This document shows, piece after piece, positions 4,242 through 36,897 of a stretch of 55,306 nt of DNA. The first letter of the stretch is position 1. The number at the start of each line of letters is the position of its first letter. Origin of the DNA: Burkholderiales bacterium (GTDB lineage Bacteria > Pseudomonadota > Gammaproteobacteria > Burkholderiales > Burkholderiaceae_C); the NCBI GenBank assembly GCA_947377275.1, contig CANCFV010000012.1:1-55306 (forward strand). The letters are read 5' to 3'. The translations under genes and the position numbers were made by a program. The notes under the pieces are model-generated. The model was not told the DNA's origin. It did not search any database and saw nothing but the letters and a program-made list of their open reading frames with translations.

Positions 4242-5201
4242 CTAAGCCCGGCTGGCGCCAATGAGCGCCGGGAAGGGCGAGTGGATCACATAGACCGGGA
4301 TGCGCTGCAGGTAAGGGCCAAAGCGACCTTTGGATTCGAAGCGGGCCCGAAACGCAGAGCGCTCGAAGAAGGCGCCGAGGCGGGGCACGATGCCACCACC
4401 CACGTAGACACCGCCCTGCGCCCCGAAAGTCACGGCCAGGTCGGCCGCCACGGTGCCCAGCATGGCGCAAAACGAATGAAGCGCGGCCACGCACAAGGCG
4501 CAACTGCCCTCCACACCTCGCTGGCTGACATCGGCGGGCGACAAGGGTTCGGGCACGGCACCTTGCAGTTGGGCGTGCGCGTGGTACAGGGCCACCAAGC
4601 CAGGCCCTGACAAGGCTCGCTCGGCAGACACGTGCGGAAACAGCGTGCGCAGCACCTCAATCACGCGGGTCTCTTCGGCATCAAAGGCCGGCAAAGTGAC
4701 GTGGCCGCCCTCGCCTTCAATCGGCACCCACAGCTCACCGTTTGCGGGGATCAAGGCCGACACGCCCAGGCCTGTGCCCGCACCCACCAGCGCCAGCGCT
4801 TTGCCAGGCATGGGCTCGGTGCCACCGACTTGCTTGAGCTCATGGGCTGGCAGTGCTGGCAAAGACAAAGCCAATGCCGTGAAGTCGTTGATGAAGCGCA
4901 GGCTGGCCAAGCCGAGGGCGTCGCGCAAGCGCCTGATGGAGAACGCCCAGTGGGCATTGGTCATCTTGACCTCGTCGCCCAAGATGGGGTTGGCGATGCC
5001 GATCACGCCGGTGCGCGGCACGCCGCACCCCGCCAAAGGTAAGACCTGTTCGAGGTAGTGCAGGATGGCTTCGAGCGGGCCAGCAAAGTCACCGCACGAG
5101 AGGTTGACGATGTGCTCGATGGGCGCGCCAGCGGCGCTTTGCAGGGCCAGGCGGGCGTTGGTGCCGCCCACATCGCCCAGCAGCTTGGGGAAGTCGCTCA
5201 T
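4242..5201 (-). CDS. glk: Glucokinase
   Basis: Glk phosphorylates glucose with ATP to glucose 6-phosphate in the cytoplasm. The 319-residue protein has the full bacterial glucokinase signature: GDVGGTNARLAL (9-20) for phosphate binding, a TNAHWAFS sugar-binding segment (81-88), INDFTALAL with catalytic Asp106, GAGTGLGVSALIP, EGEGGHVTLPAF, and a C-terminal GGGIVPRLG adenosine motif. Start: ATG at 5201 puts the motif at residue 9 as in E. coli Glk; an in-frame extension to 5459 overlaps pgl and has no such support. It is the last gene of zwf-pgl-glk, 32 bases after pgl. A second, degenerate glucokinase-like domain is encoded at 10162-12168. Confidence 0.95.
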   Translation of the reverse strand: MSDFPKLLGDVGGTNARLALQSAAGAPIEHIVNLSCGDFAGPLEAILHYLEQVLPLAGCGVPRTGVIGIANPILGDEVKMTNAHWAFSIRRLRDALGLASLRFINDFTALALSLPALPAHELKQVGGTEPMPGKALALVGAGTGLGVSALIPANGELWVPIEGEGGHVTLPAFDAEETRVIEVLRTLFPHVSAERALSGPGLVALYHAHAQLQGAVPEPLSPADVSQRGVEGSCALCVAALHSFCAMLGTVAADLAVTFGAQGGVYVGGGIVPRLGAFFERSAFRARFESKGRFGPYLQRIPVYVIHSPFPALIGASRA

Positions 5202-5233
5202 GAGGGGTCTCGCTCTGTCAGGATCAGCCGTGT

Positions 5234-5937
5234 TCAATCGGCATGGAAGGCGTGCACTGGCACGGCCTGCTGGCGCACCACCAAGCGGATGGGCCACTCG
5301 GCCACCGGGCCAAGCTCGCAGGCTTGTTGCAGCAAGGCCCACTTCGAGGCGCCCGTGATGTGCACCACGGCCACGCGCGTGTCGAGCAGCGCACGGCGGC
5401 TCAAGGTCAGGCGCGGCACCGGCACATTGGGCAGCAAGGGGGCCGACACGGCCATGCACAAGGGTGCGTGGGCGTCGTCCAGGGCGGTGGTCAGCTCCGG
5501 CGTGAACGGGAACAGCGAGGCCGTGTGCCCATCGCCACCCATGCCGAAAATGGTGACGTCAGCCGGCCAAGGCAGCGTCTTCAGGCGGGCCTCAATGGCG
5601 GGCTGGCCTTCGGAGGGCGTGGCCGCATCGGTCACCAAGGACACGAACTTGGCTTGCGCAGCCGGGCCTTGCAACAGGCTGGCACGCACGGTGCGCTCGT
5701 TGCTGTCGGCATGGTCGGGCGGCAGCCAGCGGTCGTCGGCCAGGGTGATGCTGACCTGGGACCAGTCCAAGTCCACCTGAGACAAGGCCTTGAAGAACGG
5801 CAAGGGCGTGTTGCCGCCCGAGACCACCAGCAGTGCTTGACCACGCTCGGCCAGGGCCGCACGCAAACGCGCGGTCACGAATTCGCACAAGGCCAGGGCC
5901 AGTTGGGCCGCATCGGGTGCGGTGTGAGATTGCAAAG

Positions 5938-5941
<4 letters not shown>
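5234..5941 (-). CDS. pgl: 6-phosphogluconolactonase
   Basis: Pgl hydrolyses 6-phosphoglucono-1,5-lactone, the product of Zwf, to 6-phosphogluconate. The 235-residue protein carries the [13 protein letters not shown] nucleotide-sugar-isomerase-like loop, [16 protein letters not shown], and the [13 protein letters not shown] signature of the SOL/DevB family. The start codon at 5941 overlaps the zwf stop in an ATGA arrangement, which decides the start against upstream in-frame options and indicates translational coupling. It fills the second step between glucose 6-phosphate and the Edd substrate. Confidence 0.95.
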
Positions 5942-7410
<1,469 letters not shown>

Positions 7411-7427: not shown

Positions 7428-7456
7428 TTGTATTTGTAGTAATACTACTTTAATAA
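7428..7456 (+). promoter_or_regulatory. edd promoter with HexR-like operator, shared with divergent zwf
   Basis: TTGTAT (7428-7433) and TAATAA (7451-7456) are spaced by 17 bases, a good sigma-70 promoter for edd. TGTAGTAATACTACT (7435-7449) fills the spacer. It contains the inverted repeat GTAGTA-A-TACTAC and closely follows the HexR consensus TGTARTNNNAYTACA as I remember it, missing only the last base. A divergent promoter for zwf (CTTAAT, 17 bases, TACAAA) can also be drawn over the same site. HexR repressors leave such sites when they bind 2-keto-3-deoxy-6-phosphogluconate. Binding by the regulator encoded at 10162-12168 is inference. Confidence 0.7.
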
Positions 7457-7560
7457 TTAAGAAGCGTCTACATGCAGCTTTTCCCAATGCCTAAGGCAAG
7501 ACAAACGCATGAAACTTCGCTACATTGACACCTCAATACACGTTTTTCGAGCTCGACACC

Positions 7561-9426
7561 ATGGCCCTGCCCTCCGCGCCCCTGCACCCGCAACTGCTGG
7601 CTGTGACCCAGCGCATCCGTGAGCGCAGCGCGGCCACGCGTGCGGCCTACCTTCAAGGCGTGGACAACGCTGCCCGCGACGCACAGGTCGAACGCGCACA
7701 ACTGGGCTGCACCAACCTCGCCCACGCCTATGCCGCTTCACCCCCCACTGACAAGATCTGGCTGCGCGAACAACGCGCACCCAACATCGCGATCGTGTCC
7801 AGCTACAACGACATGTTGTCGGCCCACCAACCGCTGGCGGCTTACCCAGAATGGCTCAAGCAGGCGGCACGCGAGGTGGGTGCCACGGCGCAGTTCGCAG
7901 GCGGTGTGCCCGCCATGTGCGATGGCGTGACGCAGGGCCAAGCGGGCATGGAGCTGTCGCTGTTCTCGCGCGATGTGATCGCCATGTCCACAGCCATCGC
8001 TTTGTCGCACAACATGTTCGACGCCACGCTGTGCCTGGGCGTGTGCGACAAGATCGTGCCCGGCTTGTTGATTGGCGCCTTGACCTTCGGGCACCTGCCC
8101 ACTGTGTTCGTGCCCGCAGGCCCCATGGGCACGGGCTTGAGCAACGACGACAAGGCCAAGGTGCGCCAGCGTTACGCCGCGGGCGAGATCGGCAAAGACG
8201 CCTTGCTGGAAGCCGAAGAAAAGGCGTATCACAGCGCAGGCACCTGCACCTTCTACGGCACGGCCAACAGCAACCAGATGCTCATGGAGATCATGGGCTT
8301 GCACCTGCCGGGCTCGGCTTTCGTGTCTCCAGGCACCCCGCTGCGTGAAGCTTTGACCCGTGAGGCCGCACGCCGTGTGGCCCACCTCACCCGCAAGGGC
8401 ACGCAGTACACGCCGGTGGGCCGCATGGTCGACGAGCGCGTGATCGTCAACGGCCTGGTGGGTCTGTTGGCCACGGGCGGCTCAACCAACCACACGCTGC
8501 ATTTGGTGGCCATGGCACGCGCGGCCGGCATCGTCATCAACTGGGATGACTTTCACGACCTCTCGGCCGTGACGCCACTGCTGGCCCGCGTCTACCCCAA
8601 CGGCAAGGCCGATGTGAACCAGTTCCATGCGGCTGGTGGCATGGCTTTCTTGATCCGCGAATTGCTCGGCGCCGGCTTGCTGCATGGCGATGTGCAGACC
8701 GTGGCCAACGGCCTCAATGGCTTGCAGGGCCTGCATGCATACACGCAACTGCCCACATTGGAAGGTGGCCAACTCCGCTGGATCGACGCCCCCGCACTGA
8801 GCGGCGACGGCACCGTGCTGACCACTGCGGCACACCCCTTCTCTGCCGATGGCGGATTGCGCGTGCTCAAGGGCAACCTGGGGCGCTCGGTGATCAAGGT
8901 GTCGGCCGTCAAACCCGAGAACCGCGTGGTGCAAGCGCCCGCCGTGATCTTCAACGACCAGAGCGAGCTGATCGCCGCCTACAAGCGCGGTGAACTGGAA
9001 AAAGACTTCGTGGCTGTGGTGCGCTTCCAAGGCCCACGCGCCAATGGCATGCCCGAGCTGCACTCGCTCACACCCACGCTGGCCAATCTGCAGGACAAAG
9101 GCTTCAAGGTCGCACTGGTGACCGATGGCCGCATGTCGGGTGCCTCGGGCAAAGTGCCTGGCGCCATCCACGTCACACCGGAGGTCAGCGCAGGTGGGCC
9201 CTTGGCCAAAGTGCGCGCAGGCGATGTGATCCGGCTGGACGCCGAAGCCGGTACGCTCGATGCCCTGGTGCCCGATGCCGAATGGTTGACCCGCGAAGTG
9301 GCCCAGGCCGACCTCAGCGCCAACGCGCATGGCACGGGCCGTGAACTATTTGGCGCGATGCGCCACGCCGTGAGCGGTGCCGAGCAAGGCGCCATGACGT
9401 TTGGCATGACCATGCCGAGTGCCTGA
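7561..9426 (+). CDS. edd: Phosphogluconate dehydratase
   Basis: Edd dehydrates 6-phosphogluconate to 2-keto-3-deoxy-6-phosphogluconate using an oxygen-sensitive iron-sulfur cluster. The 621-residue protein belongs to the IlvD/Edd family. Visible signatures are [26 protein letters not shown] with a cluster cysteine, [12 protein letters not shown], and the C-terminal [18 protein letters not shown]. Start: ATG at 7561 gives the usual N-terminus; a TTG at 7525 is also in frame. It is transcribed divergently from zwf and followed 46 bases later by eda. Confidence 0.95.
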
Positions 9427-9472
9427 ACCAGGGTCACGAGCCCTGCCCCTCAAACCTCAAGAAACGAGCCCC

Positions 9473-10132
9473 ATGAGCAACCGTAACCCCGCCCTGAAGC
9501 AGGCCATGAGCCTGAGCCCCGTCATCCCCGTGCTGGTCATTGATCGCACCGAAGATGCTGTGCCCCTGGCCCGCGCCCTGTTGGCCGGTGGCCTCAAGGT
9601 GCTGGAAGTGACCCTGCGCACGTCCAATGCCATGGACGTGATCGCCGCCATTGCCAAGGAAGTGCCCGAAGCAGTGCTGGCCGCAGGCACGGTGACCACG
9701 CCCCAACAGTGGGAAGCGGCCACCGCCGCAGGCGTGCAGTTTGTGGTGTCACCTGGTCTGACACCGGCCCTGGCAGAGGCCGCACAAGCCAGCAACCTGG
9801 CACCGCTGTTGCCCGGCGTGGCCACCGCCTCCGAATTGATGTCGGCGATGGACGCGGGTTTTGCCTGTTTCAAGTTCTTCCCTGCCCAACAGGCTGGCGG
9901 CGTGCCCATGCTCAAGGCCTTGGGTGGGCCCTTCGCCGAAGCGCTGTTCTGCCCGACAGGCGGCATCACGCTGGAGACCGCACCGAGCTTCTTGGCGCTG
10001 CCCAACGTGGCCTGCGTGGGTGGCTCTTGGCTGGCGCCCGTTGATGCCGTCAAGGCCGGCGACTGGGCCCGCATCCAGCAACTGGCATACGAAGCCGCCC
10101 ACTTACCTGGCAAGCCCAGCCTGATCCGCTGA
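9473..10132 (+). CDS. eda: 2-keto-3-deoxy-6-phosphogluconate aldolase
   Basis: Eda cleaves KDPG to pyruvate and glyceraldehyde 3-phosphate, the last Entner-Doudoroff step. The 219-residue protein is a class I aldolase TIM barrel: LEVTLRT near residue 42 carries the catalytic glutamate, AGTVTTPQQWE and FVVSPG follow, and FKFFPAQ holds the Schiff-base lysine; CPTGGI closes the phosphate site. Start: ATG at 9473 lies after a purine-rich AAGAAACGAG stretch. It follows edd by 46 bases and is almost certainly in the same transcript. It converges on the regulator-kinase gene. Confidence 0.95.
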   Translation: MSNRNPALKQAMSLSPVIPVLVIDRTEDAVPLARALLAGGLKVLEVTLRTSNAMDVIAAIAKEVPEAVLAAGTVTTPQQWEAATAAGVQFVVSPGLTPALAEAAQASNLAPLLPGVATASELMSAMDAGFACFKFFPAQQAGGVPMLKALGGPFAEALFCPTGGITLETAPSFLALPNVACVGGSWLAPVDAVKAGDWARIQQLAYEAAHLPGKPSLIR

Positions 10133-10161: not shown

Positions 10162-12168
10162 TCAGCGCGCGTGCGAGATCCAATCGACCCAGGGTTGCAA
10201 GCCCGCCGCGTCGTCGCGCAAACCGAAAGGTGTGCGGACAGCATCGGGGCGCTGCATGGCCAGGCCCACGGCCAGCACGTCGATCATCAACAAGTGCAAG
10301 ATCCGCGAGACCATGGACAACTGCACGGTGCGGCCCTCGACGTGGTCCACCGCCAGCGTCACCGTGGCCTTGCGAGCCAGGGGCGAGTCGCTGGCAGTGA
10401 TGGCCACCACCGAAGCGCCGGCTGCCAGCGCACGGCTGACCGCAGTCAACAGCTCGGGCACCGCCCCTGAGCGCGACACCGCCACCACCACATCGCCCGG
10501 CATCAACAGATCGGCCGCCATCGACTGCAGAGCGCTGTCGGCGTGCGCGGTGGCCGAGATGCCAAAGCGCAAGAACTTGTACTGCGCGTCAACGGCCACG
10601 ATGTGCGAGTTGCCCACGCCGTGGAACTCCACCCGACGCGCCTGTCGCAGAAGATCGATCGCCCGCGCGACAGCCTGCCCATTGAGGCCGTCGCGCAAGG
10701 CCACGATGGCCGCCACGGTGTTGTCCAGCACCTTGGCTGACAAATCGGGCGCGCTGTCACCCACCCGCACCTGGCTGTGGGCCAAGGGCACCGCACCGCT
10801 GAGGTGAGAAGCCAACTTGAGCTTGAAATCAGACAAGCCATCAAAGCCCAGGCTGCGGCAAAAACGGATCACCGTGGGCTGGCTCACCGACGCCATGCGT
10901 GCAATGTCAGACACGGGCTCATTGACCACGCTGCGGGGGTGCGCCAGCACATGGTCGGCCACCCTTTGCTCGGCAGGACTGAGCTCGACACGGTGGGCCT
11001 GGATGCGCGCCAGCAAAGCACTGGGCGCGGGGCCCTGCGCTGTTGCATCAGCTGCATCAGCTGCATCAAGCCTTGAGGCGGCCTTGCCTGAGGGCCCAGC
11101 GGGCAGCACCCGCACCTGCTCGGCCAGCAACATGGCCAGGCCCTGCCACAGCGGCGGGGCTTCGGTCACCAACCAGGTGGGCACCTTGGCCAGGTAAGGC
11201 GCCAGGCGCCCCTTGGCCTCAAAGCGCTCCCGAAAGCCAGACGACGCCAGCAGGGGCCCGACCTGACGCAACAACTCGCCGCACAGGTACACCCCACCAG
11301 ACGCGCCCAAGGTCAAGGCCACATCGGCAGCCAGCGTGCCCAGCATGCGGCACCACATTTGCACGGCGCGCAAGCTGCGTGCATCGCCTGCGTGGGCTTG
11401 CGACACCACCTGCAAGGCCGGTAAGGCCACGTCATCAGAGGACGCGGCCTCGTCCATGGCCAGGCACTGACCTTGGTGATCAAGCGCAGACCAAACAAAG
11501 CTCAGGCCGGCCGCCGACACCATGCGTTCGGCCGAGACGTGAGACCAACGCTGCCAAGCAGCCTGCAGCAATCGCAACTCGTCGGCATCGGCAGGTGCAA
11601 AGGTCGTGTGACCGCCTTCACTGCCCAGGGTAATGCGGCGGTCAGCAGACGGGATCACGCCCGACACACCCAGGCCCGCACCCTCGCTCAGGCTGGGGCC
11701 GATCACAGCTTGCACCGCGCCAGGCACGGCCTGCCCGACACCCACCGCTGACAAGGCTTGAGCGCCCAACTGAGGCACGGCCATGGCGAGCGCGGTGAAA
11801 TCATTGACCACCAGCAGGGTCTGCGCCGACAAAGCTTCACGCCACGCCTGCACCGAGCCGCTCTGCGCCACCGCAGAACCCGGCACCGTCAGGTGCACAA
11901 GATCGCCATGGATGCTGCCAGGCACCGCCAAGGCCACATGCCGTGGTGCATCGCCGCTGGCATCGACCAAGCGGTCGCCGTTCAAAGCCCGCCACGCAGC
12001 CAGCAACGCCACAGGCACGTCGTCCGGCGATGGGCAGAACTGTTTGTGAACCATGGCCTGCCCGGGGCGCTGCACACTCAACTGACCCGAAGCGTCCAGC
12101 ACGGCCAACGCACAAGTGGCATCCAGGTTCACGAACGGTGTCGAGGGCAAAACAGGCGTCAGGTCCAT
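10162..12168 (-). CDS. hexR: Glucokinase-like domain fused to HexR/RpiR-family regulator
   Basis: The 668-residue protein has two parts. Residues 1-350 are glucokinase-like: VNDFTALAM keeps the catalytic-type Asp123, and GSEGGHTTFAP (182-192) and TLGASGGVYL (286-295) are clear. After an Ala/Asp-rich linker (about 364-380), residues 385-668 form an RpiR regulator, with a helix-turn-helix (DIARMASVSQPTVIRFCRSL, 421-440) and a SIS sugar-phosphate domain (GVGNSH, VSRSGAVPE). Burkholderia has a bifunctional Glk-regulator of this plan. Here the kinase half is unusual: the DVGGTN motif is NLDATC (14-19), the TNxxW sugar motif is absent, and GGGIVPR has become CGELLRQ. The kinase half is probably inactive or a sensor. 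The regulator half is the best candidate for the operator at 7435-7449. Confidence 0.88.
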   Translation of the reverse strand: MDLTPVLPSTPFVNLDATCALAVLDASGQLSVQRPGQAMVHKQFCPSPDDVPVALLAAWRALNGDRLVDASGDAPRHVALAVPGSIHGDLVHLTVPGSAVAQSGSVQAWREALSAQTLLVVNDFTALAMAVPQLGAQALSAVGVGQAVPGAVQAVIGPSLSEGAGLGVSGVIPSADRRITLGSEGGHTTFAPADADELRLLQAAWQRWSHVSAERMVSAAGLSFVWSALDHQGQCLAMDEAASSDDVALPALQVVSQAHAGDARSLRAVQMWCRMLGTLAADVALTLGASGGVYLCGELLRQVGPLLASSGFRERFEAKGRLAPYLAKVPTWLVTEAPPLWQGLAMLLAEQVRVLPAGPSGKAASRLDAADAADATAQGPAPSALLARIQAHRVELSPAEQRVADHVLAHPRSVVNEPVSDIARMASVSQPTVIRFCRSLGFDGLSDFKLKLASHLSGAVPLAHSQVRVGDSAPDLSAKVLDNTVAAIVALRDGLNGQAVARAIDLLRQARRVEFHGVGNSHIVAVDAQYKFLRFGISATAHADSALQSMAADLLMPGDVVVAVSRSGAVPELLTAVSRALAAGASVVAITASDSPLARKATVTLAVDHVEGRTVQLSMVSRILHLLMIDVLAVGLAMQRPDAVRTPFGLRDDAAGLQPWVDWISHAR
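11042..11068 (-). repeat. Three tandem 9-bp units in the interdomain linker
   Basis: Three copies of a 9-bp unit (GTTGCATCA, then GCTGCATCA twice) encode DAADAADAT on the minus strand, in the linker between the glucokinase-like and regulator domains. Slippage here would change linker length in steps of three residues without shifting the frame. Confidence 0.8.
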
Positions 12169-35797: not shown

Positions 35798-36897
35798 GCC
35801 TCAGCCAGCCCCCCCTGAAAGGCAGCGCCGCACGCGACAGCGTTTGCGTCGTGTGCGAGCTGCCCCCGCCAACGGGCGGCATGGCCATCCAGGCTGAGCG
35901 ACTGGGCCAAGGCCTGCGCGAAGCAGGCCATGCGGTGCAACACCTGCGCACCAACCGCATGTCACCGCAATCGCGTTGGCGACGCGTCAAAGGCGTCGGG
36001 GCGCTGCTGAACTTCACGCTCTTCCTGGGTGCGGTGCTCGTGGGCCTGCCACGGTCGCAGGTGGTGCACATCTTCAGCCACTCTTACCTGAGCTTTTGGC
36101 TGTTCACCGCGCCGCCGGCCCTGTGGGGAAAGCTGCTGGGCAAGCGCATCGTGATCCATTACCACGGGGGCTCGGCAGACGACTTCTTGACCCGCTCTGG
36201 CCCGCGCGCCAAACAGATCTTTGCGTGCGCGCAAGCTTTGCTCGTGCCCTCGCAGTTTTTGGTCGATGTGTTTGCCAAACATGGCTTGACGGCCAGCGTT
36301 CTGCCCAACATCATGCCCCTGGAGCGCTTCACATACCGCGAGCGCTCGCCCCTGCAAGCTCGCATCCTGATGGCCAGACACCTCACCCCCGTCTACAACC
36401 CGGCCTGTGGGCTGCGGGCCTTCGCCTTGTTGCAGGCAAAGCACCCCGAAGCACAGCTGACCGTGGCTGGCGATGGCCCCGAGCGAGATGCCATGCACTT
36501 GCTGGCCAAAGAATTGGGCATCGCGGCGCGCGTGGACTTCATTGGCAACGTCAACAACGATCGCATGCTGGCCCAACTGCAGTCGCACGACATCTTGCTC
36601 AACACATCGCGGGTCGACAACCAGCCCGTTTCATTGCTCGAAGCCTTTGCTTGCGGGCTTCCCGTGGTCAGCACCGCCGTGGGTGGCATCACCTACATGA
36701 TCGAACACGGGCAAAGTGGCTTGCTGGCGCCCAACGATGACCATGAGGCCCTCAGCGCACTCATTCACCGCCTGTTGACCAACGCAGACATGGGCGAGCG
36801 GATCACTCGCAACGCACGCGCCCAGGTGCAGGCCCATGGCTGGCAACACATCCACCCCCTGCTCCTCCAAGCGTATTCCCCCCAAGCGACAGCATGA
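35794..36897 (+). CDS. GT4-family glycosyltransferase (third of three)
   Basis: The 367-residue GT-B protein has CELPPPTGGMAIQAERLGQ near the start, HYHGGSADDFL in the acceptor half, and the donor segment VDNQPVSLLEAFACGLPVV with VGGITYMIEHG. The usual first E of E-x7-E is replaced (VDNQPVSLLE), so the catalytic detail may differ. Start: ATG at 35794 in an ATGA overlap with the upstream stop. It overlaps the capK-like gene by four bases. Confidence 0.83.
   Translation: MSLSQPPLKGSAARDSVCVVCELPPPTGGMAIQAERLGQGLREAGHAVQHLRTNRMSPQSRWRRVKGVGALLNFTLFLGAVLVGLPRSQVVHIFSHSYLSFWLFTAPPALWGKLLGKRIVIHYHGGSADDFLTRSGPRAKQIFACAQALLVPSQFLVDVFAKHGLTASVLPNIMPLERFTYRERSPLQARILMARHLTPVYNPACGLRAFALLQAKHPEAQLTVAGDGPERDAMHLLAKELGIAARVDFIGNVNNDRMLAQLQSHDILLNTSRVDNQPVSLLEAFACGLPVVSTAVGGITYMIEHGQSGLLAPNDDHEALSALIHRLLTNADMGERITRNARAQVQAHGWQHIHPLLLQAYSPQATA

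Follow-up and report, generated by a model that had tools for sequence, protein, structure and literature searches.

What is the role of a glucokinase-like domain that is fused to a transcriptional regulator and encoded a few kilobases from an intact glucokinase gene: is it a second enzyme, a sensor of sugar or a dead scaffold? This question is raised by a single open reading frame on the minus strand (10162–12168, 668 aa) of the window, i.e. the whole 55,306-nucleotide stretch of a Burkholderiales genome that was analysed here. The sequence-only reading had described its product as a regulator fused to a glucokinase-like domain, and the Pfam and NCBIfam searches bear this out, as one 668-aa chain carries the Glucokinase, HTH_6 and SIS domains.

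The fusion gene and its Entner-Doudoroff cluster

The N-terminal half of the protein (approximately aa 1–350; 11119–12168, minus strand) matches the Pfam Glucokinase family PF02685 with 214.7 bits, above the gathering cut-off of 22.1 (E-value 2e-63 at aa 69–349). The match spans only positions 48–312 of the 314 in the profile, and thus the phosphate-1 end of the domain is left unmatched. In the C-terminal, RpiR/HexR-type half (10165–11016, minus strand) the Pfam analysis identified HTH_6 at aa 385–457 (72.1 bits, cut-off 28.3) and SIS at aa 507–634 (58.3 bits, cut-off 25), both as expected of an RpiR-family protein, and the GNS and SRSG motifs of the SIS domain are kept. The best NCBIfam match of the full-length protein is NF010701 (615.9 bits), which has the same composition of Glk, HTH and SIS on one chain and whose equivalog cut-off of 920 is not reached; the score against the HexR subfamily PRK11302 (222.2 bits) also lies below its cut-off of 296. 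No ROK domain was found by Pfam at an E-value of 1e-3. An AlphaFold model built from an alignment of two window proteins had a pLDDT of 37.9, too low to use. A search of genome contigs for related loci returned 10 loci in which only the RpiR half was matched (Planococcus, Planomicrobium and Peribacillus), and a DNA search of plasmids gave a single partial match, in Ideonella dechloratans.

The fusion is the end member of an Entner-Doudoroff cluster, glk-zwf-edd-eda-fusion, in which glk (4242–5459) and zwf (glucose-6-phosphate dehydrogenase, 5938–7410, identified by Pfam) lie on the minus strand, and edd (6-phosphogluconate dehydratase, 7525–9426) and eda (KDPG aldolase, 9419–10132), both identified by Pfam and NCBIfam, on the plus strand. 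The earlier statement that an intact glk is encoded about 5 kb away in the same cluster proved accurate: the separate gene lies 4.7 kb from the fusion and matches PF02685 with 350 bits (4245–5183). Its listed ORF has a GTG start about 90 codons ahead of the Glk match, and the true start is probably internal. Apart from the fusion and the intact glk, the genome (86.9% complete) has no PF02685 match, and the fused Glk domain is 35% identical to the separate Glk. The same gene order is found in four relatives for which the cluster was fetched whole; in G006 the cluster is divided among contigs, and the start of the fusion gene there is cut by a contig end.

The fusion occurs in six of the 42 genomes of the genus, each time with the loss on the ATP side described below. 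A sequencing error or frameshift could be ruled out as the source of the motif loss, because five other congeneric genomes carry a similarly altered fusion. The possibility that the Entner-Doudoroff pathway of the genus requires the fusion was rejected as well, with edd present in 39 of the 42 genomes and the fusion in six. In one congener (G004, locus L186) the fusion is replaced by a stand-alone 289-aa HexR-like protein encoded about 8 kb from glk.

The ATP side and the sugar side of the fused domain

The catalytic residues were examined in an alignment of 108 distinct fused Glk domains (including that of the window) and 118 other Glk rows, among them E. coli Glk, whose numbering is used for residues D9 to R286. 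The 118 rows are Glk matches whose open frame encodes no regulator half, so that a few of them are fragments or one half of a broken fusion (e.g. G199). Among the 108 fused rows identical Glk-domain sequences were collapsed (e.g. G131); for some genomes a second copy of the fusion was left out, as were matches interrupted by a stop. The rows that lack the regulator half show no variation at D9, G11 and G263 (115 of 115 with a letter there) or at D100 (117 of 117).

All three ATP loops, DVGGTN, GTGLG and GGGIVPR, are absent from the window fusion, in which D9, G11, T137 and G263 are altered and T13 falls in a gap. Where the phosphate-1 loop used to be (aa 14–27, NLDATCALAVLDAS; 12088–12129, minus strand), DVGGTN is no longer found. 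In the family alignment the loop reads VLDAS (aa 23–27), one residue short; the register is unsure because the whole clade has one residue fewer at this place (G025 lacks one more). The proposal that NLDATC stands for DVGGTN is therefore right about the loss, which holds in either register, and probably off in the register, as NLDATC lies upstream of the loop. In the phosphate-2 loop, GPSLSEGAGLG (11668–11700, minus strand), T137 is replaced by A and four residues are inserted, an insertion unique to the window among the 108 fused domains. The replacement of GGGIVPR by CGELLRQ (11263–11283, minus strand), with G263 changed to E, was recognized correctly before, and so was the loss of phosphate-binding motifs in general, to which the phosphate-2 loop, missed earlier, has to be added. 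Each of the fusion-bearing congeners that has the position is altered at D9, T137 and G263, where all or nearly all non-fused rows are canonical, and all six have a destroyed phosphate-1 loop and an acidic residue in place of G263. With its ATP motifs lost and an intact glk in the cluster, the fused domain is very probably not a working ATP-glucokinase, in agreement with the earlier words "rather than a second enzyme".

The sugar side gives a different picture. According to the available portions of two reports, glucose is bound in E. coli Glk by N99, D100 (the catalytic base), H160 and E187 (PMC13133996), and the adjoining anion site comprises H160, H183, S185, R188 and R286 (PMC13133996; PMC12312565). 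Their equivalents in the fusion (all on the minus strand) are N122 and D123 (11800–11805), E184-G-G-H187 (11608–11619, corresponding to E157..H160), H210, S212, E214 and R215 in H210-V-S-A-E214-R215 (11524–11541), and R321 (11206–11208). Together with E157, which we take to be a further glucose contact, nine pocket residues are kept in all six members of the clade. N99, H160, E187, S185, R188 and R286 are present in 108 of the 108 fused domains, E157 in 107 and H183 in 99 (R in the other nine). Seventy-three positions are conserved in at least 85% of the 118 rows; 50 of them are kept by the clade, i.e. 9 of 9 in the pocket vs 41 of 64 elsewhere (Fisher p 0.0495), and this enrichment, with p only 0.05, is a weak point of the sensor reading. 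The TNxxW motif is indeed absent from the window fusion, as had been noted together with the presence of Asp123 and SEGGH; its Asn is lost in all five clade members that have the region, three of which retain T and W (THKGW). The claimed loss of the sugar-binding motifs has to be abandoned, as the alignment, with all nine glucose and anion residues in place, rules out a loss of the sugar-binding residues. Judged from the alignment, the ATP side is lost and the sugar side kept, the opposite of what had been assumed for sugar, and this combination favours a sugar sensor over a dead scaffold. The suggested sharing of the motif losses by a whole clade with a separate intact glk likewise holds for the ATP side (six of six) and fails for the sugar residues.

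Is the dead domain still under selection? For the pair G005/G041, dN/dS is 0.087 in the dead domain, 0.095 in the separate glk and 0.011 in the RpiR half, which indicates that the dead domain is under purifying selection and favours a sensor over a relic. In pairs with the window copy, where dS is near saturation, the values are 0.28–0.42, 0.20–0.23 and 0.14–0.18, respectively, and the dead domain has a likewise high dN/dS (0.28–0.42) in pairs with G025, which is why the copy of the window species may be freer, with constraint partly relaxed. Within the clade, erosion has gone furthest in the window copy, which has an end branch of 0.74, the substitutions N76V, W79S, T137A, G261C and P266R, the loop insertion and a 22-residue linker. 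The mean identity among five members in residues 95–111, 132–145 and 146–192 is 0.93, 0.91 and 0.87 in the dead domain and 0.89, 0.91 and 0.81 in the separate Glk; in residues 1–20, 21–60, 112–131 and 301–320 the dead domain falls to 0.56, 0.49, 0.57 and 0.55, and the separate Glk has 0.86, 0.76, 0.86 and 0.93. The pair G006/G038 (loci L106 and L102) was left out of the dN/dS analysis, as its fused Glk domains differ far more (dS 0.74) than the other parts of the locus (glk dS 0.03, RpiR half dS 0.07), a mismatch suggestive of recombination or a chimeric contig end. As to the earlier alternative of a sensor or a dead scaffold, the probable death of the kinase, the sharing of the loss within the clade and the purifying selection all stand; the presumed loss of the sugar side does not, and the sensor is now favoured.

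Loss of phosphotransfer residues across the fusions of the order

Among 399 genomes of the family 93 matched NF010701, 85 of them over both halves and eight over the Glk half or little more. Of the 108 fused domains, which come from both the family and the order, 18 have D100N and ATP loops that are otherwise mostly canonical (T137A in two). These rows (G262, G179, G390, G222, G118, G328, G106, G389, G259, G248, G136, G428, G320, G159, G232, G367, G305 and G424) form one clade (SH-aLRT 100), with one change on the tree. An acid-loop state, i.e. G11D combined with G263 changed to D, E or N, is exhibited by G184, G286 and G123, and likewise by the window clade, where G11D depends on the alignment. 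Comparison of G184 with its close relative G394 shows ADIGGTYARF turned into AAIDGSEARF between well-kept flanks. Milder cases are G12R with G263R (G124), T13L (two rows), G12S (five rows) and E157Q (one row). By the same rule none of the 118 rows that lack a regulator half has non-canonical residues.

The parsimony reconstruction (G619 left out) requires at the fewest four changes for the acid-loop state and one for D100N; one of the trees is from FastTree and the others are from 'quick' mode, and the placement of the window clade, on a long branch (1.29), is unsettled. The AU tests, in which the groups were named after the tree had been seen, reject grouping of the window clade with G184 (p 0.0004; G619 left out), G286 (p 0.022), G123 (p 3e-5) and all three (p 5e-8), and do not reject that of G123 with G286 (p 0.146); all of them except that with G184 were run on 55 of the 108 rows. 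With only G123 and G286 escaping rejection, at least three separate origins of the acidic loops are supported, and four on the best tree, besides D100N. Altogether, phosphotransfer residues appear to have been lost at least four times among the fused domains. Phosphotransfer stopped by differing routes around a constant pocket is the pattern that would be expected from selection for binding without turnover.

The second putative ligand site of these proteins, the SIS domain, varies as well. Its serines (in GNS and SRSG) are presumably the phosphosugar-type ligand residues, and they are kept in the window clade (GNS and SRSG, 6 of 6) and in the D100N clade (GNS and SSSG, 18 of 18). At position 14 of the Glk domain most of the 108 fusions have Y (65), F (16), H (9) or N (8). 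The largest remaining group comprises 66 fusions, 63 with Y or F at this position and three with the end missing; the first SIS serine (that of GNS) is gone in all 66, mostly to Tyr, and also in all three acid-loop singles (G184, G286 and G123). It is kept in five of the eight N14 rows and in two of the six H14 rows with letters there. The idea that death of the Glk domain and loss of the SIS serine strictly exclude each other was considered and rejected: the serine is retained in the window clade (6) and in the D100N clade (18), and missing from the acid-loop singles.

If the fused domains had lost kinase activity, a second glk should accompany them. Kinase-dead fusions are never the sole PF02685 gene (0 of 27), and non-dead ones are the sole Glk gene in 3 of 80 cases (G712, G551 and G441), or 4 of 80 counting G619, which is the better figure since the second Glk match of G619 is a weak fragment (E-value 4e-5). 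The tally covers 107 fused genomes with counts (G638 left out), and 'canonical' in it signifies merely not kinase-dead by the list used, so that this class includes G12S (G107, G257, G263, G180 and G810), T13L (G127 and G364), G12R with G263R (G124) and E157Q (G649). The direction of the difference is as expected, and weak on its own. The four sole fusions have near-canonical loops and all are N14.

It is conceivable, and we put it forward tentatively, that the Glk-RpiR fusions of the order are a nursery of sugar receptors, in which, beside a separate glk, phosphotransfer has been stripped repeatedly and convergently while the pocket stayed fixed, and that the largest group looks as if the Glk pocket had taken over signal input from the SIS domain.

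Candidate operator, proposed mechanism and known systems

Palindrome search revealed a candidate operator, TGTAGTAATACTACT, at 7435–7449, between the divergent zwf and edd genes, which matches the 15-bp RccR-type site TGTAGT-N3-ACTACA (given in the available part of PMC5489143). Weaker sites, with two mismatches each, lie at 36578 and 47783, and the HexR-type operator TTGT-N7-8-ACAA has no match in the window. An RccR-type site upstream of edd, with one mismatch, was found in all six fusion genomes, and none with three or fewer mismatches in the 29 congeners that lack the fusion; composition shuffles of the edd-upstream stretches reached two mismatches in 3 of 1,050 cases and never fewer. The survey covered 35 of the 39 genomes with edd (G040, G036 and G030, with no edd start, and G028 were left out). 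As operator and fusion belong to the same clade, their co-occurrence may reflect a single event.

In the window clade, the 450 bp ahead of the fusion itself contain no RccR-type site (best 3–5 mismatches in five of five). Over the same distance a site with at most two mismatches is present in 46 of the 63 members of the largest group with enough sequence, in 3 of 3 acid-loop singles, 3 of 17 D100N fusions, 0 of 7 H14, 2 of 8 N14 and 0 of 5 window-clade fusions; shuffles of all fusion-upstream stretches gave such a site in 12 of 1,030 cases, and 5 of the 108 stretches were too short. With its site at zwf/edd and not at the fusion, the window clade suggests that the DNA-binding half is probably a regulator of zwf and edd. 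In L166 and L179 (two of three loci; 10 neighbouring ORFs tested) the fusion adjoins an alpha-amylase-type gene and not edd-eda, so that the regulon probably differs between clades. In G710, G622, G681 and G791 the two halves align collinearly with the fusion profile, but a single in-frame TGA separates or interrupts them, so that Glk and RpiR are probably separate genes there.

On balance we incline to the view that the protein represses zwf and edd-eda and senses sugar through a pseudo-glucokinase domain. The predicted RpiR-family repressor would act on zwf and edd-eda from the palindrome at 7435–7449. Its N-terminal half would be a descendant of glucokinase that has kept the fold and given up the use of ATP, and since the sugar/anion pocket is kept, it would most likely bind glucose or a close relative (e.g. 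glucose-6-phosphate) with no turnover. Opening and closing of the glucokinase cleft could then be relayed to the RpiR half. Because the phosphosugar-type serines of the SIS domain are kept too, the protein would have two inputs: its Glk domain would respond to free sugar, and its SIS domain to KDPG or some other phosphosugar.

Or perhaps the Glk domain is a relic or a structural scaffold, serving dimerization or stability, and the SIS ligand alone matters? The Glk domain has a higher rate of evolution than the RpiR half, erosion is strongest in the window copy and the SIS serines are intact in six of six, all as such a relic would have it. However, nine of nine pocket residues have outlived the ATP side, N99, H160 and E187 are present in 108 of 108 fused domains despite the loss of phosphotransfer by different routes, and in G184, G286 and G123, which have lost the first SIS serine, the Glk pocket is the sole canonical ligand site left; we therefore regard a relic or scaffold as rather unlikely. 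Bacterial Glk dimerizes, and the dead domain might form mixed dimers with the intact Glk, the repressor thereby reading the amount or occupancy of Glk or tuning its activity. The syntenic separate glk in the four relatives with a whole cluster would fit such pairing, but the fused and the separate Glk of the window genome share only 35% identity, and we consider this improbable. Residual sugar-kinase function of the domain, with a different phosphate donor or at low activity, would agree with D100 being kept in six of six clade members, but is very improbable given the destroyed phosphate-1 loop and acidic G263 in the same six, the loss of the base itself in the D100N clade and the presence of an intact glk.

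How does the putative sugar-sensing repressor compare with known systems? The two-domain protein itself, present in databases and in Paraburkholderia, and the principle of a kinase turned sensor are known already. NF010701 (PRK14101), the bifunctional transcriptional regulator/glucokinase, has the same two-domain order as the window fusion, and 3 of the 399 genomes of the order have matches above its cut-off. These fusions are the sole Glk gene in two of three cases (G712 and G551) and have near-canonical loops in all three (P266 is L in two), whereas the window fusion is accompanied by a separate glk and has lost its ATP loops. A 'bifunctional glucokinase - HexR' of Paraburkholderia xenovorans is named in an in silico reconstruction (PMC12568896, in the part available), and among the matches listed in the literature on Glk-RpiR fusions, as far as their accessible text goes, no kinase-dead form or recurrence is described. 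In Pseudomonas, HexR represses zwf and edd until its SIS domain binds KDPG (available parts of PMC5489143 and PMC5902321). The KDPG-responsive RpiR-family proteins HexR and RccR resemble the window fusion in the HTH and SIS half, in the neighbouring zwf and edd and in the RccR-type palindrome, and differ from it in the extra N-terminal Glk domain of the fusion; as to HexR, the window lacks a TTGT-N7-8-ACAA site and the fusion stays under the PRK11302 cut-off.

The annotations 'glucokinase' and 'bifunctional glucokinase' in this order may not denote enzymes, which matters for metabolic models. Sugar-kinase folds serve as sugar sensors in transcription control in the ROK repressors (NagC, Mlc and XylR) and in yeast Gal3, and the principle would be the same in the window fusion. 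The latter differs in using another kinase family and another DNA-binding part and in having a second, SIS ligand domain. Moreover, enzyme-to-sensor changes are, to our knowledge, usually seen as single old events, whereas among these fusions the change recurs in a single family, which seems to exhibit the stages side by side (a sole canonical fusion, a canonical one with a second glk, a base-dead one and an ATP-site-dead one) and would open the route from enzyme to receptor to direct testing.
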